Of a stretch of 35,227 nt of DNA, positions 5,563 through 23,506 are shown piece after piece. A program made the translations under genes and the position numbers. The notes beneath the pieces are model-generated. The model searched no databases. It was not told the DNA's origin and saw only the letters and a list, made by a program, of their open reading frames with translations. How positions within the stretch are numbered: position 1 is the stretch's first letter; every line of letters begins with the position of its first letter. The stretch comes from an uncultured Bacteroidales bacterium (GTDB lineage: Bacteria > Bacteroidota > Bacteroidia > Bacteroidales > Bacteroidaceae), in assembly GCA_902776455.1 (NCBI GenBank), contig CACYQI010000034.1:1-35227 (forward strand). Direction: 5' to 3'.

Positions 5563-5647
5563 AACTTAGTTTGTTTATAGTCCTGTAGTAGGGTGTTTTC
5601 TGTGTCGTTGAACTCGTTTCGTCTGTCTGCCGCGAAGGGGGGAGTTC

Positions 5648-5735
5648 TACGCTCCGTGGAGAATCGGCTTACACTCCGTGGAGAATCGGCCTACACTCCG
5701 TGGAGAATCGGCCTACACTCCGTGGAGTGTAAAAC
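5648..5735. repeat. 22-bp tandem repeat, four copies, between birA and pyrH
   Basis: Units begin at 5648, 5670, 5692 and 5714. The first three share CTCCGTGGAGAATCGGC. The fourth changes to CTCCGTGGAGTGTAAAAC, which creates the near-perfect palindrome ACACTCC-GT-GGAGTGT. Each unit carries the small palindrome CTCCGTGGAG. The array lies directly after the birA stop codon and upstream of pyrH. Confidence 0.9.
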
Positions 5736-6769: not shown

Positions 6770-7900
6770 ATGAAAAGACAGCTATCAGTCATTATCGCCC
6801 TGCTGCTTGCGCTCGGAGCAGGTGCCAGGAAGGACGACGCCCTTCGCCACTTCCCGCCGGGCACCACGCCCGAAGAGGTGGGACGGCGCCTTGCCTACCA
6901 CTTCATCGACGGCAAGCACGCCTACTGGAGCGACACGAAGAACCTGGGCTACCACGAGGTATGCACCTGGAACGGCGCCCTCATGTGGGGACGGGCCGTG
7001 GGCGACGACGTCATCATCCGCAAGATGAAGGAACGCTTCGACAGCTTCCTGGCAAACAACAAAGAGAACATTCCCGCCAAGAACCACGTAGATTTCAACA
7101 TGTTCGGCTCCCTGCCGCTCAGCCTCTACGCGTCGTTCCCCTCGGAAGAGAACTACAAGACGATGGGACTCTCCTATGCCGACTCGCAATGGGAACTGCC
7201 GGCTAAAGCCAAGGAGAGCGAGAAGCGGCTCGCACGACAAGGCTACACCTGGCAGACCCGCATGTGGATCGACGACATGTACATGATTACGATAGTCCAA
7301 GCCTGGGCCTATCGCACCACGGGCGACCGCAAGTACATCGACCGGGCCGCGCACGAAATGGTGAAATACCTCAACGAACTGCAACGGCCCAACGGCCTCT
7401 TCTACCACGCGCCCGACGCACCTTTCTACTGGGCACGCGGCGACGGATGGATGGCCGTCGGGCTGACCGAGGTGCTGAAAGCCTTGCCCAAGGACAACCC
7501 CTACTACAAACGCATCCTGAAGGGCTACCGGAAGATGATGAAGAGCCTGCTTCGCTACCGCAACAGCGAAGGCCTCTGGAACCAACTCATCGACCAGCCC
7601 GACTTCTGGACCGAAACGTCTGGCTCCGCCATGTTCACCTATGCCTTCATCCGAGGCGTGAAGGAGGGATGGCTGCCGGCTGCGAAGTATGCTCCGGCCG
7701 CTCGGAAGGCATGGCTCGCCCTTATACCTTATATTAATAATAACAACGACGTGACAAACATCTGCGTAGGCACCGGCAAGAAGAACGACTTCAACTACTA
7801 CCTCGACCGCCCGCAGATGACTGGCGACTACCACGGCCAAGCGCCCTACCTCTGGTGCGCGGCGGCGCTGATTGAACAGCCGACTGACATTAAACCATAA
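6770..7900 (+). CDS. GH105/GH88-family unsaturated uronyl hydrolase
   Basis: This is a 376-residue secreted or periplasmic enzyme with an (alpha/alpha)6-barrel. It would remove the unsaturated uronic acid left on oligosaccharides by polysaccharide lyases, for example from rhamnogalacturonan. A signal peptide covers about residues 1-19. Landmarks: WNGALMWGRAV (67-77), WQTRMWIDDMYM (161-172, with the Asp pair at 168-169 in the expected catalytic segment), YHAPDAPFYWARGDGW (212-226, conserved Asp225) and SGSAMFTYAFIRGVKEGWL near the C-terminus. Length is typical of GH105. The stop codon overlaps the next start (TAATG), so it is translationally coupled to the GH2 gene. No lyase, SusC or SusD gene lies in the window. 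The exact substrate cannot be read from the sequence; other GH88/105 activities such as ulvan remain possible. Confidence 0.88.
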   Translation: MKRQLSVIIALLLALGAGARKDDALRHFPPGTTPEEVGRRLAYHFIDGKHAYWSDTKNLGYHEVCTWNGALMWGRAVGDDVIIRKMKERFDSFLANNKENIPAKNHVDFNMFGSLPLSLYASFPSEENYKTMGLSYADSQWELPAKAKESEKRLARQGYTWQTRMWIDDMYMITIVQAWAYRTTGDRKYIDRAAHEMVKYLNELQRPNGLFYHAPDAPFYWARGDGWMAVGLTEVLKALPKDNPYYKRILKGYRKMMKSLLRYRNSEGLWNQLIDQPDFWTETSGSAMFTYAFIRGVKEGWLPAAKYAPAARKAWLALIPYINNNNDVTNICVGTGKKNDFNYYLDRPQMTGDYHGQAPYLWCAAALIEQPTDIKP

Positions 7901-10653
7901 TGACGATGAAACACACACTCTTCACCCTGCTAGCCTTCCTTGCCATGCTGTCTGCCTGGGCAGACGAGGGCCGGCAGTACATCACGCTCGACTCGCGTCT
8001 CGGCCACGAAGGCAGCCTGACTTGGCACATGATTCGGGCTTCCGAGGCTAAGCAGAATGCTTCGGAGATTGCTTCTGTAGGCTTCAACCAAAGTGGCTGG
8101 AAGGAAGCCATCGTGCCGGCAACAGTATTGACCAACCTCGTTGAGCAGAAAGTCTATCCCGAGCCATACTTCGGGCAGACAAACAAGCTCGCAAACAACC
8201 TCATTCCCGACCTCGCCAAGGCAGGACGCGAGTTCTATACGTACTGGTTCCGTACGGAATTCAACGTCCCCGCTGACTACAAAGGCAAACACATCTGGCT
8301 GGAACCGACAGGCATCAACTATCGGGCCGAGATATGGGTGAACGGAACGCTCGTCGGCACTATGGCCGGCATGTTCTGCAGCCAGCCTTTCGACGTCACA
8401 GACCGTGTGAAACCAGGCGAAACGGCAGCCCTCGCCATCCGCGTCTTCCCTGTCGATGTGCCGGGAACCTCTATGCCGAAGAATTGGGGCGCAGCAGGCG
8501 AATGGCACAACGGCGGCGACGGATGGATTGGACAGAACGTCACACAGCTCATGACGGTAGGCTGGGACTTCACTTTCGAAGACGGCATTCGCGACCGCAA
8601 CACAGGCATCTGGCGCTCCATACGCCTTTATGCCACAGGCAACCAACAGTTGCGCAGCCCATTCGTCGCTTCCGAACTGTCGCACCCTAACTACGACGAG
8701 GCTCGCGAGACAGTAAGCGTCGAGGTTTGGAACCCGAATACTTTTGGCGGCGGAGAATGCACCGTGACGGGCAGCATCAGCGAACTCCCCCTAAAGGGGG
8801 ACGGGGGGTCTATCGCTTTCAGCAGCAAGAAGATAAAGTTGCAGCGAGGAGAACACACCACCGTAACCTTCTCTCCCGACGATTTCCCGCAGCTCATCGT
8901 CAAGAACCCGCGCCTCTGGTGGCCGAAGAACAAGGGAGAACAGAATCTCTACACGTTGCAGCTGACGTTGCTCGACAGCAAGGGAAACGTCATGGACCGT
9001 CTTTCAACGCGTTTCGGCATACGCGAAGTCATCGCCACCCGCGAGACGCCCGACAAATCGAAGCTCTTCGTGGTGAACGGACAAAAGACCTTCATCCGCG
9101 GCAACAACTGGATTCCCGAGGCGATGCTCCGCACCGACGACCGCCGCATGGAGACCGAGATGGCCTACACCGACCAGTCGGGCATCAACCTGCTGCGTCT
9201 TTGGGGAGGCGGCATCGCTGAGAGCGACCGCTTCTACGAGCTGTGCGACGAGTACGGCATCATGGTTTGGCAGGAGTTCTGGATGACGGGCGACACGCGT
9301 CACCCCATGGACGAGCCGCTCTACCTCGCCAACGTGGAGAGCACCATGAAGCGCATCCGCAACCATCCCAGCATCGTCATCTACGTCTCGAGCAACGAGA
9401 GCACGGCCGTCACGGGTGCCGAAGAACTCATCCGAAGCCTTGCGCCCGGCATCCCCTACCAGATGCAGAGCGAGTGCGACGGCGTGCATGACGGCAGTCC
9501 CTACAAGCAGGTCAACCCGATGCGGCACTACGAGAACACCGCCTCCGACCGCGGCAGCCGCGTCGATGGCTTCAATCCCGAGTACGGAGCGCCTACGTTG
9601 CCCATCGTCGAAAGCCTTCGCGACATGATGCCCGCCGAGGACCTCTGGCCCATCAACAAAGCGACGTGGGACTACATGGACGGCAACGGCTTCCACCTCA
9701 TGACGACGCTCTACAAGGATATGGTCAACGAGTACGGCGCATCGAACAGCATCGAGGAGTTCGCCCGCAGGGGGCAGATGGTGGGAGCCATCAATTCGAA
9801 GAGCATATGGGAAGTGTGGAACGAGAACAAACTCGAGTTTGGCGACCGCTGGTGCTCAGGTCTGCTCTTCTGGTACCACAACTGCCCGAACTGGCAAGTC
9901 TGTGCTCGCATGTGGGACTGGTACTTAGAGCCGACGGCTTCCCTCTATCACACGATGCACGCCCTCGAGCCGCTCCACATCCAGTACAACTATCTGAAGG
10001 GCACGGTGAGCGTGAGCAACGACTATCTCGACGAGCAGCATGGACTCCAAGCCAAGGCCGAAGTCTATGACCTTCAGAGCCGTCGCATCGGTACCGTCAA
10101 GGCGAGGGTCGATGTGCCGGCCAATGGGGTGGCCAACGACGTTCTCCGCATCGCCTCCAAAGCCCAAGGCCATGCCTCCGACCTCTGTATCGTCCTCCCC
10201 GACGACATCACGCCGGTCTTTTTCATCTCCCTGGAGCTGACCGACATCAGAGGCAACGTGGTGAGCCGCAACTTCTATTGGCAGTCCACCGACAAGTACG
10301 AAGGGAAACAGACCGTGACGGGTCCCTGCACCAGCGGCTTCGAGCCGCTCGCCACGTTGCCCGAGGCGCGACCTGCCGTCAGCACCCGCCGCCTTACCGC
10401 CACCGACGGGTACTGCGAGTGGGAAGTGAGCGTGAGAAACAGCAGCAACCGCATCGCTTTCTTCTGCCAGCTCCTGCTTACCGACATGAAAGACAAGCCC
10501 TTGCACGGCACCTACTACAGCGACAACTTCTTCTCCCTCCTGCCGGGCGAAAAGAAGCTCATCACCATCCGCACCGCTAAGCAAGGCAACAACATCTACC
10601 ACCTCCGCTTCTGCGAGAACATGGCAGCAACGAGAAACGTAGTGATAAGATAG
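7900..10653 (+). CDS. Glycoside hydrolase family 2 protein (beta-mannosidase / exo-glucosaminidase type)
   Basis: This is a secreted GH2 exo-glycosidase of 917 residues. The start is the ATG at 7900 overlapping the GH105 stop, or MKH two codons later; a signal peptide ends near AWA (about 22). Domain order: N-terminal jelly-roll sugar-binding domain (about 40-230, with WLEPTGINYRAEIWVNGTLVG), Ig-like domain (about 250-370), TIM barrel (about 375-690) and C-terminal Ig-like domains. The proposed acid/base is Glu500 in IYVSSNES and the nucleophile is Glu561 in GFNPEYGAP. The barrel entry LFVVNGQKTFIRGNNWIPEAM fits the mannosidase/CsxA branch, not LacZ. Residues about 294-303 (SELPLKGDGG) are encoded by a CCCCCT-AA-AGGGGG palindrome and look like a small insertion. 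Co-transcription with GH105 suggests both act on one glycan outside the cytoplasm. Confidence 0.87.
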   Translation: MTMKHTLFTLLAFLAMLSAWADEGRQYITLDSRLGHEGSLTWHMIRASEAKQNASEIASVGFNQSGWKEAIVPATVLTNLVEQKVYPEPYFGQTNKLANNLIPDLAKAGREFYTYWFRTEFNVPADYKGKHIWLEPTGINYRAEIWVNGTLVGTMAGMFCSQPFDVTDRVKPGETAALAIRVFPVDVPGTSMPKNWGAAGEWHNGGDGWIGQNVTQLMTVGWDFTFEDGIRDRNTGIWRSIRLYATGNQQLRSPFVASELSHPNYDEARETVSVEVWNPNTFGGGECTVTGSISELPLKGDGGSIAFSSKKIKLQRGEHTTVTFSPDDFPQLIVKNPRLWWPKNKGEQNLYTLQLTLLDSKGNVMDRLSTRFGIREVIATRETPDKSKLFVVNGQKTFIRGNNWIPEAMLRTDDRRMETEMAYTDQSGINLLRLWGGGIAESDRFYELCDEYGIMVWQEFWMTGDTRHPMDEPLYLANVESTMKRIRNHPSIVIYVSSNESTAVTGAEELIRSLAPGIPYQMQSECDGVHDGSPYKQVNPMRHYENTASDRGSRVDGFNPEYGAPTLPIVESLRDMMPAEDLWPINKATWDYMDGNGFHLMTTLYKDMVNEYGASNSIEEFARRGQMVGAINSKSIWEVWNENKLEFGDRWCSGLLFWYHNCPNWQVCARMWDWYLEPTASLYHTMHALEPLHIQYNYLKGTVSVSNDYLDEQHGLQAKAEVYDLQSRRIGTVKARVDVPANGVANDVLRIASKAQGHASDLCIVLPDDITPVFFISLELTDIRGNVVSRNFYWQSTDKYEGKQTVTGPCTSGFEPLATLPEARPAVSTRRLTATDGYCEWEVSVRNSSNRIAFFCQLLLTDMKDKPLHGTYYSDNFFSLLPGEKKLITIRTAKQGNNIYHLRFCENMAATRNVVIR
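8785..8810. repeat. C-run/G-run mini-palindrome inside the GH2 gene
   Basis: CCCCCT-AA-AGGGGG followed by ACGGGGGGT lies in the coding sequence in the Ig-like domain. Similar words occur in intergenic DNA here (196-212, 13400-13440, 13645-13690, 22255-22290) and in comM (24253-24270), so it is probably a mobile or repeated short element that kept the reading frame. Confidence 0.6.
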
Positions 10654-12054: not shown

Positions 12055-12792
12055 ATGAAGTGCCTTATCCTTGCCGCTGGCTATGCCACGCGTCTTTATC
12101 CCCTCACAGAGAACTTCCCCAAGCCGCTCCTTAAGGTGGGCGACCGCGCCATCCTCGACTGGCTCATCGACGACATCGACGGCGCAGGCCTGGTGGATGA
12201 ATACATCGTCATCTCAAACCATAAGTTCGCCCGTCACTTCGAGGAGTGGGCCGCCACGAAGACACAGAAAGTCACCGTCGTGGACGACGGCACGTCCACC
12301 AACGAGACGCGCCTCGGAGCCGTACGCGACATACAATTCGCTATCGACAAGCTCCATCTCGACGACGACATGCTGGTCATCGCAGGCGACAACCTCCTGG
12401 ACTTCAGCCTCGTACAGTTCGTACGCTATGCCCACGAGAAGCAGACCTCCTGCATCATGCGCTTCTGGGAGAAGGACGAACAGCGGCTGCTGAAGTGCGG
12501 CGTCGTTACCGTAGATGAGAACGACCGCATCCTCCGCATGACCGAGAAGTCGCCTACGCCCGAGACCCATTGGTGCTGCCCGCCCTTCTACTACTACACG
12601 CGGCAGGACGCGCGCCTCGTGGAGAAAGGCATCCAGGAAGGCTGCGGCGTGGATGCCCCCGGCAGCTACATCGCCTGGCTCTGCACACAGACACCCGTCC
12701 ACGCCTGGGAGATGCCCGGACGCCGCTACGATATCGGCAACCTCCAGAGCTACGAACAGGTGCAAAAGGAATATCGCGGCATCAAAGCATAG
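12055..12792 (+). CDS. Sugar-1-phosphate nucleotidyltransferase
   Basis: This 245-residue cytoplasmic enzyme of the NTP-transferase (GT-A-like Rossmann) fold makes an NDP-sugar from a sugar-1-phosphate. Signature: LILAAGYATRLYPLTENFPK (4-23), with the conserved Arg and Lys, although the usual GxGTR is GYATR. The metal-binding Asp is in IAGDNLLDFS (about 113-122). EKSPTPETHWCCPPFYYY (about 172-189) matches the sugar-binding part of the family. There is no left-handed beta-helix extension, so it is a single-domain transferase. It is the last gene of the hydrolase-kinase operon and probably uses the product of the kinase upstream. Nucleotide and sugar cannot be told from the sequence. Confidence 0.85.
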   Translation: MKCLILAAGYATRLYPLTENFPKPLLKVGDRAILDWLIDDIDGAGLVDEYIVISNHKFARHFEEWAATKTQKVTVVDDGTSTNETRLGAVRDIQFAIDKLHLDDDMLVIAGDNLLDFSLVQFVRYAHEKQTSCIMRFWEKDEQRLLKCGVVTVDENDRILRMTEKSPTPETHWCCPPFYYYTRQDARLVEKGIQEGCGVDAPGSYIAWLCTQTPVHAWEMPGRRYDIGNLQSYEQVQKEYRGIKA

Positions 12793-12910: not shown

Positions 12911-13272
12911 ATCCGGAAAAACCACGACATCATTTCCTCCCTCTTCCTGTGGCAATCCCCTCCCCCGCACGCCTTCCTTTTCGACGCTCCACGTTGCATC
13001 GGCCGATGCTCCACGTTGTATCGCCTTTTCCTCCACGTTAACTTTCCCCTTTCAACTTTCAATTTTCCACTTCATTCTTTGTTCTGTATGACGGCATTTT
13101 ATGCCGTCCTAACACTTTCTTAACTTCGCTCGGCAAAACGCCCCTTTCCAACCCATTGATTCCCAGCGGCCATTCGATTTAAGCTCATTTCCCGCCTTCG
13201 GTGGACCAAAGTGCCACAGCGACAAAAAAACGCTGCCAGAACGTGCCTCGCTGCGAAAACTTCTGACAAAAC
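12911..13272 (+). other. Duplicated ~365-bp non-coding element, copy 1
   Basis: This copy aligns with 21871-22236 along its whole length. Shared blocks, in the same order and at nearly the same spacing, are: TCGACGCTCCACGTT (12981), TTTCCTCCACGTTAACTTTCC (about 13026-13046, one mismatch in copy 2), CATTCTTTGTTCTGT (13073), an 8-bp hairpin (13090-13108), CTAACACTT.CTTAAC, ATTGATTCCCAGCGG (13155), ACCAAAGTGCCACAG (about 13203) and GCGAAAACTTCTGACAAAAC (ends 13272). The distance from the first block to the CATTC block is 92 bp in both copies. The hairpin is GACGGCAT-TTT-ATGCCGTC here. No open reading frame is shared. It lies downstream of a plus-strand operon that converges on a minus-strand gene. 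Strand is assigned only by that context. Confidence 0.8.
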
Positions 13273-13279
13273 ACAAAGA

Positions 13280-13508
13280 TGTCTCACACGGAAAACACAG
13301 AAATCACAGAAATTTTCAACATCGAAAAACACTAAAAACACGAACCATTGAGAATGAACATCTGAAGATGCGAAAGACTCGAAAAGCTTCGCCAGCGGTC
13401 CCCCTCCCTTTTAAGGGGAGGGGTTAGGGGTGGGGTGTCTCACACGGAAAGCACAGAAAGCACAGAAATTTTCAACATCGAAAAACACTAAAGACACGAA
13501 CCAGTGAG
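13280..13508. repeat. 73-bp direct repeat, two copies
   Basis: Copies at 13280-13352 and 13436-13508 differ at only a handful of positions. Each starts TGTCTCACACGGAAA, passes through 9-bp words (CACAGAAAG/CACAGAAAT) and ATTTTCAACATCGAAAAACA, and ends CACGAACCAnTGAG. The first 35 bp or so recur at 13685-13718 and 22290-22320. Confidence 0.88.
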
Positions 13509-13717
13509 CATCATAATAGGAGCCGACGCTTCCAAGCGTCGGTATCTGGCAAAGAAACGTTCCGACGCTCGGAAGCGTCGGCTCCTACTGCAAAGAAGAC
13601 AAATAACGTGTAGTTAGATGCGAAAGACACAAAAAGCTTCGCCGCGGTCCCCCTCCCTTTTAAGGGGAGGGGCTAGGGGTGGGGTGTCTCACACGGAAAA
13701 CACAGAAAGCACGGAAA
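13367..13717. repeat. Direct repeat of ~100 bp (13367-13470 and 13617-13717) with C/G-run hairpin
   Basis: Both copies start GATGCGAAAGAC, continue AAAAGCTTCGCC and then carry a CCCCCTCCC-TTTTAA-GGGGAGGGG hairpin-like stretch followed by TTAGGGGTGGGGT (CTAGGGG in the second), and then CACACGGAAA. A third, more diverged form lies at 22240-22350. They bracket the long inverted repeat at 13517-13587. Confidence 0.85.
13517..13587. repeat. 26-bp inverted repeat, 71-bp hairpin element
   Basis: The arms at 13517-13542 and 13562-13587 (TAGGAGCCGACGCTTCCAAG... and its complement) pair over 26 bp with one mismatch around a 19-bp loop. Each arm is itself palindromic (CCGACGCTT...AAGCGTCGG). It looks like a small MITE- or REP-like element. 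It has no T-run after the stem, so it is not a typical terminator. Confidence 0.88.
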
Positions 13718-13770
13718 TAAAATGCCCCCAAGGTTTCATCGAATTCACGTTAAATAAAAATGAGCAGGCC

Positions 13771-13855
13771 GGCAATTCTCTTCCTGCCCTTCTCTCGGCG
13801 AGCCTTTTTATTTTGGCTCGCCTTTTGAAGGGCTGGGAGAGAATTGCCTTTTTTA
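13771..13855. terminator. Strong nested hairpin terminator at convergent gene ends
   Basis: The outer stem GGCAATTCTCTTCC... (13771-13792) pairs with 13827-13848 over 22 bp with two mismatches. The inner stem GGCGAGCC (13797-13804) pairs with GGCTCGCC (13815-13822) around a T-rich loop. CCTTTTTTACC follows on the plus strand, and TCATTTTTATTT follows on the minus strand. It therefore probably stops transcription from both sides. It lies 45 bp after the stop of the minus-strand SUMF1 gene. Confidence 0.8.
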
Positions 13856-13899
13856 CCTTTTCAATTTTTTCCTTTTTCAATTTTTCTAAAAGGAAAGAA

Positions 13900-16011
13900 C
13901 TATAGGGCAAGGCGCAGACCGAACGAGTTGCTGAACGCGCCCGTCGGCGTGATGACGCTCCGATTCGCTACGCGGCAGTTCGTAGCGTGGTTGCTCCAGC
14001 TGCCCCCGCGGTACACGCGGAGATAGCCCGATGATGGACCGGTGGGATTCGTCTGGCTGCCGCTGCTGTATGAACTATACCAGTCCTGACACCATTCCAA
14101 AACGTTGCCGCTCATGTCGTAGATGCCAAGTTCGTTCGGAGCCTTGGTGGAAACGGGCTGACTCGATTGAGAGGGAATGTTGTCCCAATACCATGCTACG
14201 TCGCCTATCGTGTTGCTGCCGCTGTAGGTGTAACCCTTGCTCTGATTGCCGCCACGGGCTGCATACTCCCATTCTGCCTCCGTAGGCAGGCGGAACGTCT
14301 TGCCCGTCAGCTCGTTCAGCTTCGTGATGAACGTCTGGCAGTCGTTCCAGCTAACTTTTTCTACAGGAAGCTTGTTCCCCTTGAAGTAGCTGGGGTTGCT
14401 GCCCATCACGGCCTGCCACAGCTCCTGCGTCACTTCCGTCTCGCCGATGCTGAAGCTGCTCAGCGTTACCTGATGACGGGGCTTCTCATTATCATACGCA
14501 CCGCTGTCATCATCACTGCTGCCCATCTGGAACGTGCCCCCTGCCACAGGAATCATCTTGAACGACACGCCATTGACGGTATAGGTCTGCCCGTCGCTTG
14601 AACTGGATGAACCCACCGCCACCTGGCACTCGGCATAGACGCCGCTGCCATCCGTAGCTGCACAAGTAATAGTGCAGGTGCCGCTGGCTTTGGCCGTCAC
14701 CATGCCGCTCGTGCTGACAGTGGCAACGCTGGTGTTGCTGCTCGTCCAAGCGACTGCCTTGTTATTTGCGTTACTGGGAAGCACAGTGGCAGTGAGCGTC
14801 TGCGTCTTGCCGACCTCAAGCGAGAGCGTGGAAGGGCTGATGGTGATGATTGTCACGAGCGCTGCCGCACCACTCCCATTGCAGACAGGACGCACCGTGA
14901 ACCCGTAGCAGCGGTAGTAGCCTCTTGACGGAGTGATGCCCGGCGAGCTGAAGTCCAGAGCGTAGGCGGAGCTGGTATCTGACGTGTAGAGCGTCGATGA
15001 CCAGTAGAAGCCGTCCTTGTCGTAAGGGTTGGCACCGCTATAGTTGAGGCTGGTATCGAAGATGTAGCCCGAGGCGGGAAAGAAAACTCGCTTACTGATG
15101 TCGCTCGCACTTACGAAGAGAAGACCAGCTACGCCCGTGTAAGCCGACTCGATTGTTTGCGTGCTGCTCAGCCAGTAGATGCCGCCCTTCGTAATGGTGT
15201 TATTCAGTACGACGGGCTTCTGACTGTTGGCACTGCTGCCTGAGCAGGCAGCAGCAAGAGCCTCGTAATCGGCCTTGGTAGGCGTGCGCCATGTGCTACC
15301 CCAGTTGGCTGTGGCAGCGTCGTGGGCTGCATCAAGCGTACTGCCTGTATAGGAAGGATAGTTGCTTTCGCTATAACCACTACTGTAGCCACTCTTCCAA
15401 GTAAAGGAAGCTTCAACGCCCTTGACTGTGATGGTCGGATAGTGCGTGATGGTCGCATAGCGTGGCTGAGTCTCGCCCCATGCGAAGTAGTCGCCGTAGC
15501 AAGTCTCGTAGCTTCCGGCCACAGTCGTAGCCCCTACGTTCATCGTGGCCCATTTCAGACCACCAATCTCAACGTACCCCTGATCGTCTTCCTGACCGCT
15601 GCTGCCCACCGTCACCTGACATGTAGCCTTCACGCCGCTGCCGTCGGTAGCGCGGCAAGTAATGACACAGGTGCCGTTGGCATTGGCTATTACCCTGCCG
15701 CTTTGGTTCACCTCCGCCACATTGGTGTCACTGCTCTGCCAGGTCACGACTTTGTTCTGCGCGTTTTCGGGAAGCACTGTAGCGGTCAGGAAACGCATTT
15801 CGTTCGGCTGCAAGGTGAGCGATGTCTCACTCAGCACAATCTGCTGAACGAGTTTCGCTTCCGCCTCAACAAATACGATGCTGTCCAGTTCGGATACTTC
15901 GTACTCAACCACCTGACTGTTTGACTTGTAGAGTAGCACCTTCTGTGCCATCGCTGTCTGCAAGCCTGCCACAAGAAGAAGCAGGACTGCAAGAATACTG
16001 TTTCTTTTCAT
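13900..16011 (-). CDS. Secreted BIG2 / Fib_succ_major / SUMF1-domain protein
   Basis: This is a 703-residue surface or secreted protein. The start is taken at 16011 (MKRNSILAVLLLLVAG..., a clear signal peptide ending AMAQ). A Met 21 codons upstream lies only about 12 bp from the -7 box and would spoil the signal peptide. Domains in order: short N-terminal segment; BIG2 Ig-like domain (about 53-137); a Fibrobacter-succinogenes-major-paralogue domain (about 144-390, starts GGLKWATMNVG, ends YRCYGFTVRPVC); a second BIG2 (about 392-475); and a SUMF1/formylglycine-generating-enzyme-like domain (about 483-703: PVAGGTFQMGS, RLPTEAEWEYAARGG, YDMSGNVLEWCQDWY, RVYRGGSW). The last part has only one Cys (NCRVANRS) where oxidative FGE needs two, so catalysis is doubtful and ligand binding in a C-type-lectin-like fold is more likely. 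Its own promoter and terminator make it a single-gene unit. Confidence 0.88.
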   Translation of the reverse strand: MKRNSILAVLLLLVAGLQTAMAQKVLLYKSNSQVVEYEVSELDSIVFVEAEAKLVQQIVLSETSLTLQPNEMRFLTATVLPENAQNKVVTWQSSDTNVAEVNQSGRVIANANGTCVITCRATDGSGVKATCQVTVGSSGQEDDQGYVEIGGLKWATMNVGATTVAGSYETCYGDYFAWGETQPRYATITHYPTITVKGVEASFTWKSGYSSGYSESNYPSYTGSTLDAAHDAATANWGSTWRTPTKADYEALAAACSGSSANSQKPVVLNNTITKGGIYWLSSTQTIESAYTGVAGLLFVSASDISKRVFFPASGYIFDTSLNYSGANPYDKDGFYWSSTLYTSDTSSAYALDFSSPGITPSRGYYRCYGFTVRPVCNGSGAAALVTIITISPSTLSLEVGKTQTLTATVLPSNANNKAVAWTSSNTSVATVSTSGMVTAKASGTCTITCAATDGSGVYAECQVAVGSSSSSDGQTYTVNGVSFKMIPVAGGTFQMGSSDDDSGAYDNEKPRHQVTLSSFSIGETEVTQELWQAVMGSNPSYFKGNKLPVEKVSWNDCQTFITKLNELTGKTFRLPTEAEWEYAARGGNQSKGYTYSGSNTIGDVAWYWDNIPSQSSQPVSTKAPNELGIYDMSGNVLEWCQDWYSSYSSGSQTNPTGPSSGYLRVYRGGSWSNHATNCRVANRSVITPTGAFSNSFGLRLAL

Positions 16012-16085
16012 TTTTTTTGTTATTGATGTTAAAAATATAGGTATTGTTTCGTATATATTAATAGGCCACTTCACCTAAACACAGG

Positions 16086-16116
16086 CAAAATTACGAATTA
16101 TTTGCTTACGAACAAA
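16086..16116 (-). promoter_or_regulatory. Promoter of the SUMF1-domain gene
   Basis: On the minus strand: TTTG (16116-16113), a 19-bp spacer, then TAATTTTG (16093-16086). This is a full Bacteroidetes -33/-7 promoter. It lies about 75 bp before the chosen ATG at 16011 and supports that start over the one at 16074. Confidence 0.8.
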
Positions 16117-16196
16117 GGAAAACGCCGAAAAGTTTGGCAAATAAAGGCTCTCTGGGCATACAAAGATCACTTTAACACCATTTTTCTGCCCGATTA

Positions 16197-16228
16197 TTTG
16201 CACGTTTCAAGGAAATAGCTTACCTTTG
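16197..16228 (+). promoter_or_regulatory. Promoter of the rimP-nusA-infB operon
   Basis: TTTG (16197-16200), a 20-bp spacer, then TACCTTTG (16221-16228) match the Bacteroidetes consensus. The leader to the rimP ATG is about 70 nt and includes the inverted words GGCTTCGAAAGTTCC/TCGAAAG. The promoter is divergent from that of the SUMF1 gene. Confidence 0.85.
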
Positions 16229-16302
16229 CACGCGAAAGATGAAAGTGAGGGGCTTCGAAAGTTCCTCATTTTTCGTTATAAACCATTAAAAAGCTAAGAT
16301 AC

Positions 16303-16770
16303 ATGATCAGCAAAAGCGCAGTACAACAGGCCGTGGAGGAATGGCTACAAGGCAAAGAGTATTTCCTGGTTGACATCAACATCAGTCCCGACGACCGCAT
16401 CGTGGTGGAGATAGACCACCAGGACGGTGTGTGGATAGAGGACTGTGCCGAGCTGAGCCGCTACATCGAGTCGCGCCTGAGCCGCGACGAGGAGGACTAC
16501 GAACTGGAGGTTGGCAGCGCCGGCCTGGGACAGCCCTTCCGCGTGCGCCGGCAGTACGAGATTCACGTCGGCAAGGAGGTAGAGACTCAGCTGCACGACG
16601 GCCACAAGTTCCGCGGCACGCTCCTCAGCGTAGGCAACGACGGATTCCAGCTGGGCATCGAGCAGAAGGTAAAGGAGGAAGGCAAGAAGCGCCCCGTAGT
16701 CAAGGTAGTGCCAACGGACTTCCGCTTCGACGATGTGGCCTACACAAAGTACCTGATTAAGTTGAAGTAG
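16303..16770 (+). CDS. rimP: Ribosome maturation factor RimP
   Basis: This cytoplasmic protein is needed for maturation of the 30S ribosomal subunit. At 155 residues it has the two-domain RimP form: an N-terminal alpha/beta domain with the conserved DDRIVVEIDHQDGVWIEDCAELSR stretch (about 29-52) and YELEVGSAGLGQPFRVRRQYEIHVGKEV (about 67-94, matching the family's EVSSPGLDRPL segment), then a C-terminal SH3-like barrel. The DPxDYxLEVSSPG motif is altered to EEDYELEVGSAG, as is common in Bacteroidetes. It is the first gene of the conserved rimP-nusA-infB order, which supports the call. Confidence 0.95.
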   Translation: MISKSAVQQAVEEWLQGKEYFLVDINISPDDRIVVEIDHQDGVWIEDCAELSRYIESRLSRDEEDYELEVGSAGLGQPFRVRRQYEIHVGKEVETQLHDGHKFRGTLLSVGNDGFQLGIEQKVKEEGKKRPVVKVVPTDFRFDDVAYTKYLIKLK

Positions 16771-16905
16771 AGGTAAGAGGTGAGAGGTGAGTGGTTCTTC
16801 GCTTCGCTCAGGCGCAAGCGGAAAGATAATACCTTTGGACTCTAATCCGCATCCCAAAACTAACCTCTAACACCTAACCTCTAACCACCAACCACAAGAA
16901 ATTAA
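16769..16905. repeat. Inverted heptamer arrays GAGGTGA / AACCTCT with a dispersed-repeat core
   Basis: The left arm is GAGGTAA, GAGGTGA, GAGGTGA (16770-16790). The right arm (about 16859-16900), on the other strand, reads GGTTGGT, GGTTAGA, GGTTAGG, TGTTAGA, GGTTAGT. The core contains a 29-bp sequence (16793-16821, GGTTCTTCGCTTCGCTCAGG...) whose reverse complement occurs at 23308-23336 with one mismatch. The element separates rimP and nusA and takes the space where a ribosome-binding site would be expected; an A-rich stretch precedes nusA. Confidence 0.88.
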
Positions 16906-16921
16906 ATAATAAAAAGATATA

Positions 16922-18187
16922 ATGGCTAAAACAACAAAATCAAAGGAAGCGGCGAACATGATAGAAGTCTTCGCCGACTTCAAAGAGAAGAACAACATCG
17001 ACCGCGCCACGCTGGTCAGCGTGCTGGAGGAGTGCTTCCGCAGCGTCATCGCCAGGATGTACGGCTCCGACGAGAACTACGACATCATCGTCAACCCCGA
17101 CAAGGGCGACTTCGAAATCTATCACAACCGCGTCGTTGTGCCCGACGGCGAAGTGACCGACCCCAACAAGGAAATATCGCTGAGCGAAGCACAGCAGATT
17201 GAGGATGACTACGAGACAGGCGAGGAAGTGAGCCAGCGCGTGGACATGTCGGAGTTCGGCCGTCGCGCCATCCTCCAACTCAGGCAGACACTCGCCAGCC
17301 GCATCATGGAGCTGGAGTACGATTCGCTCTACAATGAGTTCAAGGAACGCGAGGGCGAAGTGATTAGTGCCGAAGTCTATCAGACTTGGAAGCGCGAGAC
17401 GCTCCTCATGGACGAGGAAGGCAACGAACTGCTGCTGCCGCGTCAGGAACAGATTCCCAGCGACTTCTTCCGCAAAGGCGAGACAGCCCGTGCCATCATA
17501 GCCCGAGTGGAAAACACAGGCGGCAAGCCCCGCATCATCCTGAGCCGCACGTCGCCCGACTTCCTCAAGCGCATGCTGGAAGCCGAAGTGCCTGAGATAC
17601 AGGACGGCCTCATCACCATCCACAAGGTGGCACGCATTCCCGGCGAGCGCGCAAAGATTGCCGTGGAGAGCTACGACGACCGCATCGACCCCGTGGGAGC
17701 CTGCGTCGGCGTCAAGGGAAGCCGTCTGCGCGGCATCGTGCATGAACTGCGAGGCGAGAACATCGACGTCGTGACATGGACCTCCAACGTACAGCTGATG
17801 ATAACCCGCGCCCTCAACCCGGCCCGCGTCAACAGCGTCGTGCTCCACGAAGAGGAACACAAGGCAGAGGTCTTCCTCGACCCCGACCAGGTGTCGCTCG
17901 CCATCGGCAAGGGCGGACTCAACATTAAGCTTGCCAGCATGCTCGTAGGCTACACCATCGACGTCTTCCGCGAAGTAGATAGCAACGCTGCCGACGAAGA
18001 CGACGTAAGCCTCGACGAATTTACCGATGCCATCGAGCCGTGGATCATCGACGAACTCAAGAAGATCGGCTTCGAGACAGCACGCGACGTACTGGGCGCA
18101 CAGCGCGACATGATCGTAAAGAACGCCGACCTCGAGGAAGAGACGGTAGATGAAGTGCTGCGCATCCTGCAGGCAGAGTTCGAATAA
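16922..18187 (+). CDS. nusA: Transcription termination/antitermination factor NusA
   Basis: This RNA-polymerase-binding elongation factor affects pausing, termination and antitermination. At 421 residues it has the short NusA form without the acidic repeats at the C-terminus of the E. coli protein. Domains: N-terminal polymerase-binding domain (about 1-135, with LVSVLEECFRSVIARMYG), S1 domain (about 137-205), KH1 (about 240-300, GACVGVKGSRLRGIVHELRGENIDVV), KH2 (about 305-375, DPDQVSLAIGKGGLNIKLAS) and a short acidic helical tail (VSLDEFTDAIEPWIIDELKK...). It is co-directional with rimP and infB. Confidence 0.97.
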   Translation: MAKTTKSKEAANMIEVFADFKEKNNIDRATLVSVLEECFRSVIARMYGSDENYDIIVNPDKGDFEIYHNRVVVPDGEVTDPNKEISLSEAQQIEDDYETGEEVSQRVDMSEFGRRAILQLRQTLASRIMELEYDSLYNEFKEREGEVISAEVYQTWKRETLLMDEEGNELLLPRQEQIPSDFFRKGETARAIIARVENTGGKPRIILSRTSPDFLKRMLEAEVPEIQDGLITIHKVARIPGERAKIAVESYDDRIDPVGACVGVKGSRLRGIVHELRGENIDVVTWTSNVQLMITRALNPARVNSVVLHEEEHKAEVFLDPDQVSLAIGKGGLNIKLASMLVGYTIDVFREVDSNAADEDDVSLDEFTDAIEPWIIDELKKIGFETARDVLGAQRDMIVKNADLEEETVDEVLRILQAEFE

Positions 18188-18188
18188 T

Positions 18189-18240
18189 ACCCTATAAACC
18201 CCATAAGCCCCTATAAGCCCTATAAGCCCCATAAGCCCAA
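18189..18240. repeat. Single-orientation nonamer array between nusA and infB
   Basis: Words of about 9 bp related to CCCATAAGC/CCTATAAGC are repeated five or six times with small changes in the gap between nusA and infB, all in one direction. An ACTAAAGACTAAAG direct repeat follows at 18245. Confidence 0.8.
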
Positions 18241-18277
18241 CAAGACTAAAGACTAAAGCGAAGTAGCCGAATCATAT

Positions 18278-21151
18278 ATGAGCGTAAGATTAAATAAAGT
18301 AACAAAGGAATTCAACATCGGACTGCAGACAGCCGTTGAATTTCTCCAAAAGAAAGGCTTCAGCGAGGTTGAGGCCAATCCCAACTACAAAATTACCGAG
18401 GAACAGTATGCCCAGTTGCAAAGCGAGTTCAGCTCTGACAAAGGACTGCGCAACGAAGCTAAGCAGCTCATCCAGCAGCACATCGACCAAGCCAGGGGAC
18501 GCAAGGAGGCAACACCGAAGTCCAAGGCGAAGCCTGTGGAAGAGGTACAGATAGAGGCACCCAAGGTAGCTGGCCCCAAGATATTGGGAAAGATTGACTT
18601 GGACAACAAGCCAGCCGAAAAGCCCAAAGCCGAGAAGCCAGAACCGGCAAAAGCCAAGACTAAGGCTCCGAAAGAAGAAAAGAAGTCGGAACCGAAGGCT
18701 GCAAAGGAAGAGCCAAAGGCAAAGGCTGCTCCGAAGGAAGCTGCGCCCGCACCGAAGAAGGAGGCTGTCAAGGAAGAGCCGAAGGTAGTTCCCGAAGCGC
18801 CGAAGGAAGCGCCGACGGCACAGCCCCAGCAGGAAGAGAAGCCCGCAGAGGCAGCGCCCGAACATCAGCCTGCTCCCGAGGAGAAGAAGGAAGAAGAGGT
18901 GTTCCGCCTCACTCCCACGGCAAGCATTGCCCCAAGCCTCACCATCAAGGGAAAGATTGACCTCGACAGTCTGAACCAGAACACTCGTCCGAAGAAGAAG
19001 ACGCAGGAGGAGCGTCGCCGCGAGCGCAACGAAGCACAGGGCGGCGACCGCAAGAAGCGTCTGCGCGTCGGCAAGGAGCGTGTCGATGTCAATGCCGTTG
19101 CCAACCAGCCTCAAGCAGGTCAGAAGAAGAAGGGCGGCAATTCAGGTCAGCAGCAACAGCAGCAGAACCAGAACGCCGGCGGCAAGGGCAAGAACAAGAA
19201 GCAAAAGAACCAGCCCAAGCAGACTATCGTCCAGCCTGAAGTGAGCGACGAGGAAGTGGCAAAGCAGGTACGCGAGACGCTGGCCCGCCTCACCAGCAAA
19301 GGCACGAAGATGGGCAAGGGCGCCAAGTATCGCCGCGAGAAGCGCGAAGCCATCCGCCAGGGCATGGAGGAAGAGATGGCCAACGAAGCAGCAGAGAGCA
19401 AGGTACTCAAGCTGACCGAGTTCGTTACGGCCAACGAGCTTGCCACCATGATGAATGTGCCCGTGACGAAGATTATCGCCACCTGCATGAGCATCGGCAT
19501 CATGGTCAGCATCAACCAGCGAATGGATGCAGAGACCATCAACCTCGTTGCCGAAGAGTTCGGCTTCACCACGGAATACGTTAGTGCCGACGTCACAGCA
19601 GCTGTCAGCGAGGAGGAGGACGACGAGGCCGACCTCGTGCCACGCGCTCCCATCGTCACCGTCATGGGTCACGTAGACCACGGTAAGACGTCGTTGCTCG
19701 ACTACATCCGCCAAACTAACGTCATCGCCGGCGAGGCAGGCGGCATCACGCAGCACATCGGCGCCTACAACGTGACGCTCGACGACGGACGCCACGTCAC
19801 CTTCCTCGACACGCCTGGCCACGAGGCCTTCACCGCCATGCGTGCCCGTGGTGCTCAGGTGACGGACATCGCCATCATCATTGTGGCTGCCGACGACGAC
19901 ATCATGCCGCAGACGAAGGAGGCCATAGCGCATGCCACGGCTGCCGGTGTGCCCATCGTCTTTGCCATCAACAAGATAGATAAGCCCGGGGCAAACCCCG
20001 ACAAGATAAAGGAAGGCTTGGCCAACATGAACTTCCTTGTAGAGGAATGGGGCGGCAAGTATCAGAGCCAGGACATCAGCGCCAAGAAGGGCAACGGCGT
20101 GGCCGAACTTCTGGAGAAGGTGCTCCTCGAGGCTGAGATGCTCGACCTCAAGGCCAACCCCAACCGCAAGGCCACAGGCTCCATCATCGAGTCCAGCCTG
20201 GACAAGGGTCGCGGCTACGTTGCCACGGTGCTCGTCAGCAACGGTACGCTCCATGTGGGCGACATTCTGCTGGCCGGCACGAACTACGGTCGCGTGAAGG
20301 CTATGCTGAACGAGCGCGGACAGCGTGTCCAGGAGATTGGCCCGTCGCAGGCTGCTACGGTGCTTGGCCTGAACGGAGCGCCGCAAGCAGGCGATGCCTT
20401 CCACGTGATGGACTCCGACCAGGAGGCTCGCGAGATAGCCAACAAGCGCGAACAGCTGGCACGCGAGCAGGGCTTGCGCACCATGAAGCGTCGCGGACTG
20501 GAAGAGCTTGCCCACAACATCGCGCTGGGCGGCGTGCAGGAACTCAACCTCATCGTCAAGGGCGACGTGGACGGCTCCATCGAGGCCCTCAGCGATTCGC
20601 TCATCAAGCTCTCTACGGAGAAGATTCAGGTGAACGTCATCTACAAGGCCGTCGGACAGATCAGCGAGAGCGACGTCAACATGGCAGCTGCCGCCGACAA
20701 CTGCTTCATCGTCGGCTTCCAAGTGCGCCCGTCGGCTGCAGCCCGCAAGCTGGCCGAGCAGATGGACGTCGATATCCGCCTCTACAGCGTCATCTACGAT
20801 GCCATCGAGGAGGTGAAGGACGCCATGGAAGGCATGCTTTCGCCCGAGATAAAGGAGGAGGTGACGGCACAAGTCGAGGTGCGTCAGGTCTATCACATCA
20901 CGAAGGTGGGCACCGTGGCAGGCGCTTACGTCGTCGATGGCAAGGTGAGCCGCTCGAACAAGGCGCGTGTCATCCGCGACGGCATCGTGGTCTTCACGGG
21001 TGCCATCAACGCCCTGAAGCGTTTCAAGGACGACGTGAAGGAGGTATCGACGAACTTCGAATGCGGCATCTCGCTCGTGGGTTACAACGACTTGCGCGAG
21101 GGCGACATGATTGAAACCTTCCAGGAGATTGAAATCAAAGCAACACTTTAA
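18278..21151 (+). CDS. infB: Translation initiation factor IF-2
   Basis: This GTPase places initiator tRNA on the 30S subunit and promotes 50S joining. It has 957 residues. The N-terminal IF2_N-like domain ([28 protein letters not shown], about 1-60) is followed by a long charged linker rich in Lys, Glu, Pro, Ala and Gln (about 70-330), a second IF2_N domain (about 365-430, [20 protein letters not shown]), and the G domain. The G motifs are GHVDHGKT (464-471), DTPGHEAF (about 511) and NKIDKPG (about 565). Domains II-IV follow, with the C-terminal domain ending in [20 protein letters not shown]. Length is normal for Bacteroidetes, which have long linkers. The annotated start is well placed after an AT-rich leader (AATCATAT). 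Confidence 0.98.
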
Positions 21152-21161
21152 AGCAATTCAC

Positions 21162-21262
21162 AATTCATAATTCACAATTCATAATTCATAATTGGGCTAC
21201 GCCGCGAACACGACAGGCCGACGGCCACAATTATGAATTGTGAATTATAAATTATGAATTAA
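21162..21262. repeat. Inverted heptamer arrays AATTCAY / RTGAATT
   Basis: The left arm (21162-21195) reads AATTCAC, AATTCAT, AATTCAC, AATTCAT, AATTCAT. The right arm (21228-21262), on the other strand, reads AATTCAT, AATTTAT, AATTCAC, AATTCAT. The GC-rich core between them (about 21195-21226) has GCC-CGACGGC palindromes. The element fills the infB-cvpA gap. The unit resembles that of the nadB-trkH element (1761-1993) but the core is different. Confidence 0.9.
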
Positions 21263-21267
21263 TCGCA

Positions 21268-21738
21268 ATGGACATCCTTTTGCTCATTATTCTTGCCGTT
21301 GGCTTCATCAGCGGACTTTTCTCGGGGGCTATCAAGCAAGTCATCTCGCTCGCAGCCTTCTTGATTGGCTTTCTCGTAGCTTGTCTCTACTACCAACGGC
21401 TGGCCGACGTGATGACGGACTTCCTTTCGATGGCCGCGCTCTGCAAGGTGGTGGCCTTCGTGCTGCTGTGGGTCGTAGTGCCCATCGCCGTCAAGGTGAT
21501 TGCCAGCCTGCTGACGTCGGTGCTGAACTTCGTGCCTGTCCTCGGACTGCTCAACCGGCTGCTTGGCGGCCTTCTCGGCATGGTGAAGTACTCCCTCGTG
21601 CTCGGAGCACTCATCTGGCTCTTTGCGTCCACGAATCTGATAAAAGAGGAAACGATGCAGAAGTCGAAGCTCGCCGGACCACTCAAGGCACTACCGGAGC
21701 TTTTGTACAACTATTGCAATCCGCAAAAAACTACTTGA
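21268..21738 (+). CDS. cvpA: CvpA family membrane protein
   Basis: This is a 156-residue inner-membrane protein of the CvpA (colicin V production) family. It shows four hydrophobic segments: about residues 1-20 (MDILLLIILAVGFISGLFSG), 24-45, 60-88 and 105-122. The conserved GFxxGxxxGxxxQ start of the family is seen as GFISGLFSGAIKQV (12-25), and the glycine-rich LNRLLGGLLGMVKYSL (about 96-111) also fits. The molecular role in this phylum is not settled; it is linked to envelope stress in enterobacteria. It lies 116 bp after infB, so it is probably partly co-transcribed across the heptamer element. Confidence 0.85.
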   Translation: MDILLLIILAVGFISGLFSGAIKQVISLAAFLIGFLVACLYYQRLADVMTDFLSMAALCKVVAFVLLWVVVPIAVKVIASLLTSVLNFVPVLGLLNRLLGGLLGMVKYSLVLGALIWLFASTNLIKEETMQKSKLAGPLKALPELLYNYCNPQKTT

Positions 21739-21870
21739 AAGGCCTCACACGCCGCCGGTAGCTTTTCGTCCCTTCAAAGCCTGTAATTTGAGGGAAGGGA
21801 AGTCGCGGGCAGACTTCCTTTTGGTTTCTCTTTGAGGGAAGGGGTGTGCCTCCCTGAAAAACCAAAGGGT
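21739..21870. other. Intergenic stretch after cvpA
   Basis: No gene is visible. Repeated words GAGGGAAGGG (about 21791 and 21834) and an inverted pair GAAGTC...GACTTC (21798-21818) are seen. The stretch leads into copy 2 of the duplicated element. Confidence 0.4.
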
Positions 21871-22236
21871 ACGATTCGGAAAATCCACGACACTAAATCC
21901 TGCCTCTCCATGGGGAAATACCCGACGCCCCAAGCCATCTCCTTCGACGCTCCACGTTATGTAGGCCGACACAGCACGTTATGTCGCTCTTTCCTCCATG
22001 TTAACTTTCCCCCTCCGACGTGCATTTTTCTGCCTCATTCTTTGTTCTGTTTGTCGGCACTGTGTGCCGACCTAACACTTCCTTAACCCTCCCCGACAAA
22101 ATTCCCCTTCCCTAACCTATTGATTCCCAGCGGTGATTCAAAATAATCCCTTTTCCCTTCCTTTCCGGACCAAAGTGCCACAGAAGCAAAAAAACGCCGC
22201 CAGAACGCGTCGCCATGCGAAAACTTCTGACAAAAC
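21871..22236 (+). other. Duplicated ~365-bp non-coding element, copy 2
   Basis: This copy aligns with 12911-13272. Block positions are: TCGACGCTCCACGTT (21944), CATTCTTTGTTCTGT (22036), hairpin (22053-22071), ATTGATTCCCAGCGG (22119), ACCAAAGTGCCACAG (about 22171) and GCGAAAACTTCTGACAAAAC (ends 22236). The hairpin here is GTCGGCAC-TGT-GTGCCGAC. Compared with copy 1, two of the eight base pairs differ and both have changed on both strands. As in copy 1, the element lies at the 3' end of a plus-strand operon facing a minus-strand gene and is followed by the C/G-run and CACACGGAAAGCACAG repeats. No protein-coding frame is shared by the two copies. Confidence 0.8.
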
Positions 22237-23253: not shown

Positions 23254-23490
23254 CGAACCAAAGGTCGACGAAGTCAAGGCGCGAAAGACCACAGACGGAG
23301 GTGTACTCCGCCTGCGCCTGAGCGAAGCGAAGAACCCCCGGGATAGGGTCGCTGAACAATAATAAGCCCTAAGGGGGCAACAGAACGTGTAACTTGTTTA
23401 ATAAGAACATGCTTAGGTCTCTGTCGCCCCCTCGGGGCTTCCATTGTTGTTGCAATCCTACCGGGGGCTTGCGCCCCCGTCTGTGGTCTC
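23254..23490. repeat. Nested inverted repeats between the barrel and phosphatase genes
   Basis: The outer arms AGACCACAGACGG (23286-23298) and CCGTCTGTGGTCT (23477-23489) are a perfect 13-bp inverted repeat. Inside, 23366-23384 (GCCCTAAGGGGGCAACAGA) pairs with 23420-23438 over 19 bp with four mismatches. At 23254 a 23-bp word matches 213-235. At 23308-23336 a 29-bp word matches the reverse complement of the rimP-nusA core. So the gap is a mosaic of several dispersed elements, with no gene visible. Confidence 0.8.
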
Positions 23491-23506
23491 CCGTCCCTTC
23501 GGGACT

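Follow-up and report, generated by a model that had tools for sequence, protein, structure and literature searches.

The BrickBuilt MITE of Porphyromonas gingivalis is an intergenic element present in 19 copies of 84–991 nt, in which a tandem 23-nt repeat lies between a leader and a tail, the terminal inverted repeats are of the GAGACCTTTGCA type, and the number of units varies at conserved loci (PMC4596501, in the parts of that report available to us). According to the accessible portions of the corresponding reports, REP/BIME sequences and the REPINs that accompany RAYT are extragenic imperfect palindromes found in hundreds of copies (PMC2817692, PMC3733652, PMC3116915), with a species-specific sequence, regular arrays, and complementary changes that preserve the palindrome (PMC2817692, PMC3733652). 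The DUS dialects of the Neisseriaceae, as far as the consulted text describes them, are short single motifs that are spread genome-wide, with thousands per genome quoted, agree within a species, differ from one relative to the next, and form inverted pairs close to gene ends (PMC3630211). No description of E360, the intergenic family considered here, was found among the titles and abstract openings listed by searches of open-access papers, some of which were aimed at such an element.

The E360 family and its copies in the window

The window, a 35,227-nt stretch of DNA from an uncultured Bacteroidales bacterium (contig CACYQI010000034.1), contains the following features:

5647–5727, plus strand: stand-alone array of four 22-bp units in the genome's own dialect (CTCCGTGGAG form) and lacking the other parts of E360
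12911–13270, plus strand: E360 copy 1, 360 bp, non-coding and intergenic (family profile match, HMM positions 3–360)
12914–12929, plus strand: direct repeat at the left end of copy 1, CGGAAAAACCACGACA (terminal-motif analysis, alignment)
12981–13046, plus strand: dyad array of copy 1, three units of 22 bp with cores at 12987–12996, 13009–13018 and 13031–13040 (alignment)
13090–13108, plus strand: central hairpin of copy 1 (sequence, covariation test)
13110–13270, plus strand: conserved right half of copy 1 (ACACTTTCTTAAC, GATTTAAGC, AAAGTGCCAC and the terminal repeat), no consensus fold
13253–13270, plus strand: direct repeat at the right end of copy 1, GCGAAAACTTCTGACAAA (terminal-motif analysis, alignment)
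21874–22234, plus strand: E360 copy 2, 361 bp (family profile match, HMM positions 3–360)
21877–21892, plus strand: direct repeat at the left end of copy 2 (terminal-motif analysis, alignment)
21944–22009, plus strand: dyad array of copy 2, three units of 22 bp with cores at 21950–21959, 21972–21981 and 21994–22003 (alignment)
22053–22071, plus strand: central hairpin of copy 2 (sequence, covariation test)
22073–22234, plus strand: conserved right half of copy 2
22217–22234, plus strand: direct repeat at the right end of copy 2 (terminal-motif analysis, alignment)

An earlier, sequence-only reading had described a twice-occurring element of about 365 bp. The two matching stretches are real: in a global alignment they are identical at 276 of 360 positions (76.7%) with one gap run, their alignment score is 464 as against 160 for the best of 200 shuffles, and the shared blocks are spaced as that reading gave them (TCGACGC to CATTC, 92 bp in each copy; from there to ATTGATTCCC, 82 and 83 bp). 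However, they are not a pair, since the genome contains at least 75 copies, and the extents are replaced by the profile-defined boundaries listed above. Both copies do lie 3′ of plus-strand genes (a nucleotidyltransferase at 12055–12792 for copy 1 and CvpA/Colicin_V at 21268–21738 for copy 2) and ahead of convergent genes; gene names such as uvrA and asparaginase, also used in this analysis, are presumptive and were assigned by reading translations. The C/G-run repeats reported to follow both copies are found to the right of many members of the family but not all, and are separate dispersed repeats.

The copies from this genome comprise 69 near-full-length sequences (profile match of at least 250 positions; fragments were excluded, as was the interrupted copy in L075) and six further right-half matches located beyond the stretches from which these were extracted. 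Their length is almost fixed: 60 of the 69 are 360 bp, six are 359 bp and two are 361 bp, the first count being 60 rather than 61 because L037, anchored on its right part, has an extra 22-bp unit; for the partly matched copies L037, L101, L108, L112 and L114, lengths and end comparisons were extrapolated by profile coordinates. Pairwise identity among the copies is 52–94%, and E360 bodies show fewer gap openings than flanking repeats of equal identity (in the 75–80% bin, 7.95 versus 21.95 per kb). By our own ORF calling, 67 of the 69 are intergenic and two overlap a predicted ORF. A stop-free minus-strand frame is present in a few copies.

Under strict filters, and in MAGs that are incomplete, E360 was detected in 11 of 61 congeneric genomes, counting this one; among the matches listed, the carriers have from 2 to at least 48 each, with at least 75 in this genome, and the copy numbers for this genome and for G027 are lower bounds. 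A first, tighter sequence pattern gave no match across genome contigs. A looser one returned 86 stretches, some of them in unrelated bacteria; in the 80 that were scanned with the profile, matches above 25 bits were confined to MAGs titled Bacteroidaceae, Prevotellaceae or Bacteroidales, and the remaining pattern matches were therefore taken as chance. A second class of related elements (L133, L187, L194, L144, L159 and L150) has the common core only (about profile positions 27–315) and different ends. The 138-copy comparison set was built by dropping duplicates and copies that start past profile position 60 or score below 35; two of the pairs retained in it involve second-class elements or near-identical genomes.

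Terminal repeats, dyad arrays and dialects

E360 is composed of direct terminal repeats, 22-bp dyads and a conserved right half, the right arm being about 145 bp; the terminal repeats and the dyad array had been absent from the earlier description. The mean self-match of the 69 copies is 0.52 at lag 22 and 0.43 at lag 44, as against 0.21–0.34 at all remaining lags between 5 and 49, and dyad units occur in both orientations. In 19 of 90 copies (shuffled, 0) the two ends match as direct repeats over at least 10 of 12 positions. With the cut-off set so that three quarters of the ends are recognized, the terminal motif is exclusive to E360 ends in 455 kb, its sole match outside an annotated end being the left end of the L037 copy. 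Stand-alone arrays were intergenic in all six cases examined and mostly adjoin gene 3′ ends (8 of the 10 flanks counted at these six).

The dyads form genome-specific “dialects.” With strands summed, CTCCACGTTG occurs 377 times in this genome and 5–29 times in 13 relatives, and CGCCGCACGCG occurs 504 times in G027, 442 times in G076, and 1–11 times in the other 12 genomes, among them this one (twice). E360 is located at orthologous intergenic positions in several species, for example behind one same gene in four genomes; most copies of this genome have no orthologue in the partial set of loci compared. At orthologous sites the array mostly resembles its own-genome paralogues, whereas the right half mostly resembles its orthologue: the orthologue beats the paralogues in 5 of 24 orthologous pairs for the array and in 17 of 24 for the right half, the pairs being non-independent and four of them joining near-identical or close genomes. 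In the three pairs that include the genome of the window, paralogues are favored in array and right half alike. Trees of the array and of the right half show 29 and 33 genome changes, respectively, a small difference, and shuffled data about 62.

Candidate explanations

The best explanation, which we hold with middling confidence, treats E360 as a non-autonomous interspersed repeat that acts at the DNA level, belongs to a ruminant-gut Bacteroidaceae clade, is REP/BIME-like and carries phased, probably protein-bound dyads. Such an element would be a mosaic akin to BIMEs and REPINs, in which a phased 22-bp palindromic array and a right arm of ~145 bp have direct repeats outside them. The dyads, two helical turns apart, may be where a symmetric DNA-binding protein docks, one with a specificity that would differ between species. 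The likeness of arrays within a genome could be kept by unit turnover, through slippage, template switching or gene conversion, and also by lineage-specific multiplication of the element, possibly via a single-strand (HUH-type) or other recombinase. The covariation of the hairpin would then be a by-product of palindrome symmetry being kept, rather than the mark of an RNA fold. Against this reading, the analysis did not turn up a binding protein, a transposase or a promoter for E360.

A wider reading we put forward tentatively: the arrays of the clade may represent a genome-wide dialect system in which intergenic 22-bp palindromes, with hundreds of sites in each genome, can occupy old positions common to several species although their sequence is rewritten in each genome. 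Behind such a system would stand an undescribed factor that binds or recombines DNA and evolves fast; E360 would be a composite hub whose second binding region evolves slowly. Should the dialects follow a trans-acting protein, the genus would offer a natural series for the joint change of motif and reader, comparable to REP-RAYT and DUS-ComP.

It is rather unlikely that E360 is a host cis-element under selection, that is, a genome-organizing, termination or DNA-recognition site (cf. uptake-sequence dialects and gyrase-binding BIMEs) that has spread because the cell needs the repeats. The gap-poor divergence counts against the interspersed-element reading, as it could also mean host selection on each copy, and the constraint on length in spite of up to 48% divergence, the copies at orthologous sites in several species, the placing of stand-alone arrays and the dialects, which recall DUS (PMC3630211, available parts), are all consistent with a host function. 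On the other hand, 50 of the 61 genomes, which are incomplete, gave no match under strict filters, and this absence, together with counts that range from 2 to at least 75, makes E360 look dispensable; the scarcity of orthologues among the loci compared tells in the same direction.

We consider it improbable that E360 is a functionless, decaying MITE-type family of a DDE transposon. The many copies, their intergenic location and patchy distribution, and near-duplicates with a common left flank (e.g., L012 and L014, whose bodies are 93.6% identical and whose left flanks are 94% identical over 121 bp) fit this view, but neither terminal inverted repeats (an inverted match over at least 10 of 12 positions in 2 of 90 copies; shuffled, 0) nor target-site duplications were detected, and a classical MITE was rejected on these grounds. 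The duplication scan covered lengths of 2–14 and offsets of up to 12 from either end in 90 copies, and its largest z was 3.4 among some 6,900 settings; old duplications may have decayed. Few indels, the occupation of orthologous sites and the exclusivity of the terminal motif also argue against a MITE. A transposase-bearing full-length relative, named beforehand by the sequence-only reading as a finding that would count against it, was not met in the searches made, and no transposase was noticed in the 25 largest clusters of the 757 predicted proteins beside copies.

The proposal of selection on a folded structure had come from the hairpin, GACGGCAT/ATGCCGTC in copy 1 and GTCGGCAC/GTGCCGAC in copy 2, where two pairs are indeed altered on both sides. 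Such compensatory changes are real: over three helices of this genome's copies, the cells with both sides altered number 77 versus a shuffled mean of 38.7 (none of 500 shuffles reaches 77; slid partners give 16–51), and double changes are present in all eight pairs of the central hairpin. By a plainer and weaker measure, 13 pairs have a double change versus a shuffled mean of 10.2 (reached in 13 of 500 shuffles; slid versions, at most 12). Nevertheless, selection on an RNA is poorly supported. The right half, the most conserved part, yields zero consensus RNA pairs in 69 sequences from 14 genomes. At the hairpin place, 60 of 68 copies from this genome form seven or more of the eight pairs (shuffled, 15) and 10 of 69 are weak (fewer than six), whereas among copies from other genomes such stems are no commoner than in shuffled sequences (12 versus 18 of 70). 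The same hairpin is recognizable in two of those 70 (L103 of G020 and L122 of SRR10912534) and is thus not wholly confined to this genome, which still falls short of a covariation-supported fold across species. G-U pairs exceed A-C mismatches in the hairpin (30:13) and in two dyads (61:43 and 51:29), and a C/T transition bias in the family has the same direction. Single-copy folding gave z of −1.5 for copy 1 and −0.5 for copy 2 (9 and 30 of 100 shuffles as good), Rfam at gathering score had two matches in the window and none at either copy, and dyads in either orientation likewise speak against RNA. A structured non-coding RNA family is quite improbable, though the strong covariation of the hairpin and the two copies elsewhere count against our preferred reading and leave an RNA role a small probability. 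Symmetric sites or template switching account for covariation equally well (PMC8794818, in the part accessible), and even strong covariation of a hairpin in a repeat family need not imply RNA.

Also rejected were site-specific integration at the terminal repeat (free site absent in 455 kb), error-prone reverse transcription (A-specific spectrum absent in 16 close pairs), coding sequence (mean of 2.6–4.3 stops per frame; column entropy without 3-base periodicity), an origin from phages or plasmids (one copy from this genome matched no phage, one G027 copy no plasmid, and one pattern no viral contig), and RAYT mobilization. For the last, Y1 genes are patchy, as PF01797 was matched in 14 of 41 genomes and unmatched in the E360 carriers G005, G012, G020, G024 and G036, which are incomplete genomes; the two Y1 loci read (L271, a weak match in this genome, and L265 in G027; others were scanned by profile only) are both flanked by non-E360 palindromes, and an own-dialect array lies at L271 on the 3′ side only.

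Comparison with described systems

E360 resembles BrickBuilt in its intergenic location and multiple copies, in occurring in the same bacterial order, and in its tandem repeat, the 22-bp array lying between the left end and the conserved right half as the 23-nt repeat lies between leader and tail; the variation of unit number at conserved loci is also counted as a likeness. By contrast, the terminal repeats of E360 are direct, its length is nearly fixed and its 22-bp dyads fall into genome-specific dialects, and the BrickBuilt inverted repeat was found within 2 mismatches in none of 90 copies.

With REP/BIME and REPIN sequences E360 shares the extragenic imperfect palindromes in large numbers (377 exact cores in E360 and stand-alone arrays, where REP/BIME membership takes more than 100 copies per genome), the species-specific sequence, the regular arrays and the complementary changes. 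Unlike them, it follows a strict 22-bp head-to-tail period, and it has a right arm that is long and conserved as well as terminal repeats in direct orientation. As for the GTAG/GTGG head, GTAG or CTAC is present in the array part of 32 of the 69 copies and absent from the unit consensus, and at the Y1 loci read no inverted pair of repeat copies brackets the gene, as it would a RAYT gene. The likeness to DUS is one of motif pattern, a short genome-wide motif that is uniform within a species, differs between relatives and is found in inverted pairs close to gene ends; DUS are single motifs, whereas those of E360 are set in 22-bp-phased arrays.

Copies and anatomy of the element

The sequence-only reading had described a diverged pair of non-coding elements, and both copies are real: 12911-13270 (copy 1) and 21874-22234 (copy 2) align end to end, identical at 276 of 360 positions and with a single gap run (score 464; at most 160 in 200 shuffles), and both the spacing of the blocks and the hairpin's two double changes match the description. 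They belong to an intergenic family of ~360-bp elements, termed E360, with the following parts from left to right.

Left terminal repeat, CCGAAAAACCTTGACA, leftmost
Poorly conserved stretch, between left terminal repeat and dyad array
Array of 22-bp palindromic units (dyads), three clear units in this genome
Central hairpin, between array and right-half motifs (copy 1, 13090-13108; copy 2, 22053-22071)
Right-half motifs, in order, ACACTTTCTTAAC, GATTTAAGC, AAAGTGCCAC
Right terminal repeat, GCGAAAANTTTTGACAAA, oriented like the left one (direct)

Self-match of the array is highest at lags 22 (0.52) and 44 (0.43), against 0.21-0.34 at other lags, and its core forms, CTCCACGTTG, CAACGTGGAG, CTCCACGGAG and CTCCGTGGAG, are two half-sites combined in either orientation. 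When the two ends are compared over 12 bases, their best agreement is on average 8.66 in direct orientation, 7.61 when inverted and 7.34 with the right end shuffled. With the threshold set so that three quarters of E360 ends pass, the terminal motif occurred nowhere but at these ends within 455 kb of the genome, and no target duplication stood out among 90 copies.

A search of the genome (3.39 Mb, 94 contigs) returned at least 40 matches, and a 16-base pattern with up to two mismatches returned 65 (backward control, 1). From the fetched stretches of this genome 69 near-full-length copies were extracted; because six further right-half matches lie outside these stretches, the genome holds at least 75. 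Between the profile ends, the length is 360 bp in 61 of the 69, 359 bp in six and 361 bp in two; the true 360-bp count is 60, because L037, counted among the 61, contains an additional 22-bp unit. Pairwise identity is 52-94% (median 70%). A simple ORF caller using codon statistics places 67 of the 69 in intergenic space and predicts an ORF overlapping the other two; the 5′ gene runs in the same direction in 45 of the 68 copies that have such a neighbour, and downstream genes have no clear orientation bias (34 same, 30 opposite).

Elsewhere in the window, 23461-23506 (plus strand) matches Rfam Acido-Lenti-1 (RF01687) at 38 bits, barely exceeding the gathering score of 37, and 28743-34971 (minus strand) holds a four-gene SMC-type operon that, from its predicted products, looks like an MksBEF/Wadjet-type system.

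MksE (PF21980)
DUF3584 protein, weakly matching JetC
Protein weakly matching JetD
400-aa protein, no Pfam match

Hairpins and folding

The proposal that selection acts on a folded structure held in part: three hairpins covary among the copies of this genome, but the right half, though conserved across 14 genomes, has zero consensus pairs. In the three hairpins, double-change cells number 77 (38.7 shuffled, 16-51 slid) and pairs with a double change 13 (10.2 shuffled, 8-12 slid). All eight pairs of the central hairpin show double changes; the hairpin is weak (fewer than six of eight pairs) in 10 of the 69 copies of this genome. In a looser scan, at least seven of eight pairs form in 60 of 68 copies of this genome versus 15 shuffled; at the same place in other genomes they form in 12 of 70 versus 18 shuffled, and two of the 70 (G020 L103 and SRR10912534 L122) carry recognisably the same hairpin. 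Single-copy folding gave z values of -1.5 (copy 1) and -0.5 (copy 2). G-U mismatches outnumber A-C mismatches by 30 to 13 in the central helix and by 61 to 43 and 51 to 29 in the dyads, and transitions on the E360 strand are skewed in the same direction (C/T 348, A/G 168, in 16 close pairs with unequal base totals). Template switching is described as a source of compensatory hairpin changes (PMC8794818).

Distribution, dyad dialects and orthologous positions

A right-half model built on sequence alone, applied with strict filters to 61 genomes of the genus, found matches in 11, this one included (at least 48 here and in G027, then 30, 29, 22, 22, 13, 12, 7, 3 and 2), and none in the other 50. 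Outside the genus, BLAST with one copy of this genome hit just one of 25 genomes, over 22 bases. Scanning named genomes with a pattern placed copies in MAGs titled Bacteroidaceae, Prevotellaceae or Bacteroidales, mostly of ruminant or rumen source where the title gives one; one copy of this genome searched against phages, one G027 copy against plasmids and one pattern against viral contigs found nothing.

The dyad core is common to one genome and differs between genomes. The CTCCACGTTG core occurs 377 times here (backward control, 4) and 5-29 times in 13 relatives (controls 0-14), three of them without detected E360; CGCCGCACGCG occurs 504 times in G027 (control 1), 442 in G076 (control 0), twice here and 1-11 times in 11 other genomes (controls 0-12). 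Copies of other carriers, for example G005 and G036, are less uniform as judged by eye. Arrays also stand alone: a strict core search of 455 kb of this genome found one at 5647-5727 of the window and five more. TRF reported 22-bp tandem repeats in relatives, including two without detected E360 (G008 and G025), part of these hits being of other kinds.

Several related arrangements were encountered. A 22-bp array of ~6.7 units (GCACAAGTACGTGTACTTAATT; L170:7595-7743, MAG RUG837) may be an E360 with an expanded array, because it directly precedes an E360 right half (7776-7975). A second element class (L133, L144, L150, L159, L187, L194) combines E360 dyads and the GATTTAAGC...AAAGTGCCAC core with other ends, some members carrying a TGTAAGCAAAA...TTTTGCTTACA palindrome. 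A different ~330-bp element with ends TATTGGTGTCCGGGG / CCGGACAGCAATA (L075:2923-3270) lies inside an E360 copy and resembles a MITE that duplicated 9 bp, since ATTAAAAAT flanks it on both sides; similar ends adjoin some other E360 right ends. In this genome, a Y1 (RAYT-like) transposase gene (L271:1437-1977) is flanked by GGCGGATTTGTAATCCGCC-type palindromes, and an array in this genome's dialect lies ~270 bp 3′ of it.

Several E360 copies occupy orthologous intergenic positions in the same orientation and at a similar distance, as at a site between genes that by their sequence are asparaginase (before) and uvrA (after), where the distance from the asparaginase gene to E360 is 13, 13, 11 and 26 bp in G036, RUG11599, RGIG4467 and G027. 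Among 24 ortholog pairs, not independent of one another, the ortholog was closer than the other copies of the same genome in 5 for the array and 17 for the right half (2 and 13 of 20 without the three closest genome pairs). This difference is moderate, because in the trees of either region copies group strongly by genome (29 changes for the array and 33 for the right half versus ~62 shuffled). Where this genome is one member of the pair (three cases), paralogues are favoured in both regions alike. At the window's two sites, the relatives' loci compared hold no full E360; array units lie behind the nucleotidyltransferase (copy 1) in G027 and G036, and behind cvpA (copy 2) there is an array in G005, one unit in G035 and a TRF 22-bp repeat in G012; this is no more than suggestive.

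Nature of the element and known systems

The fixed spacing, the dyads two turns apart, the genome-specific cores and the conserved, unfolded right half suggest that E360 is a DNA-level repeat element, probably bound by a protein. Mere decay is spoken against by the copies at orthologous sites and the few indels, and a DDE MITE by the lack of TIRs and TSDs. BrickBuilt and REP/BIME come closest in architecture; each has defining features that E360, when tested for them, did not show, and E360 is therefore filed in neither.
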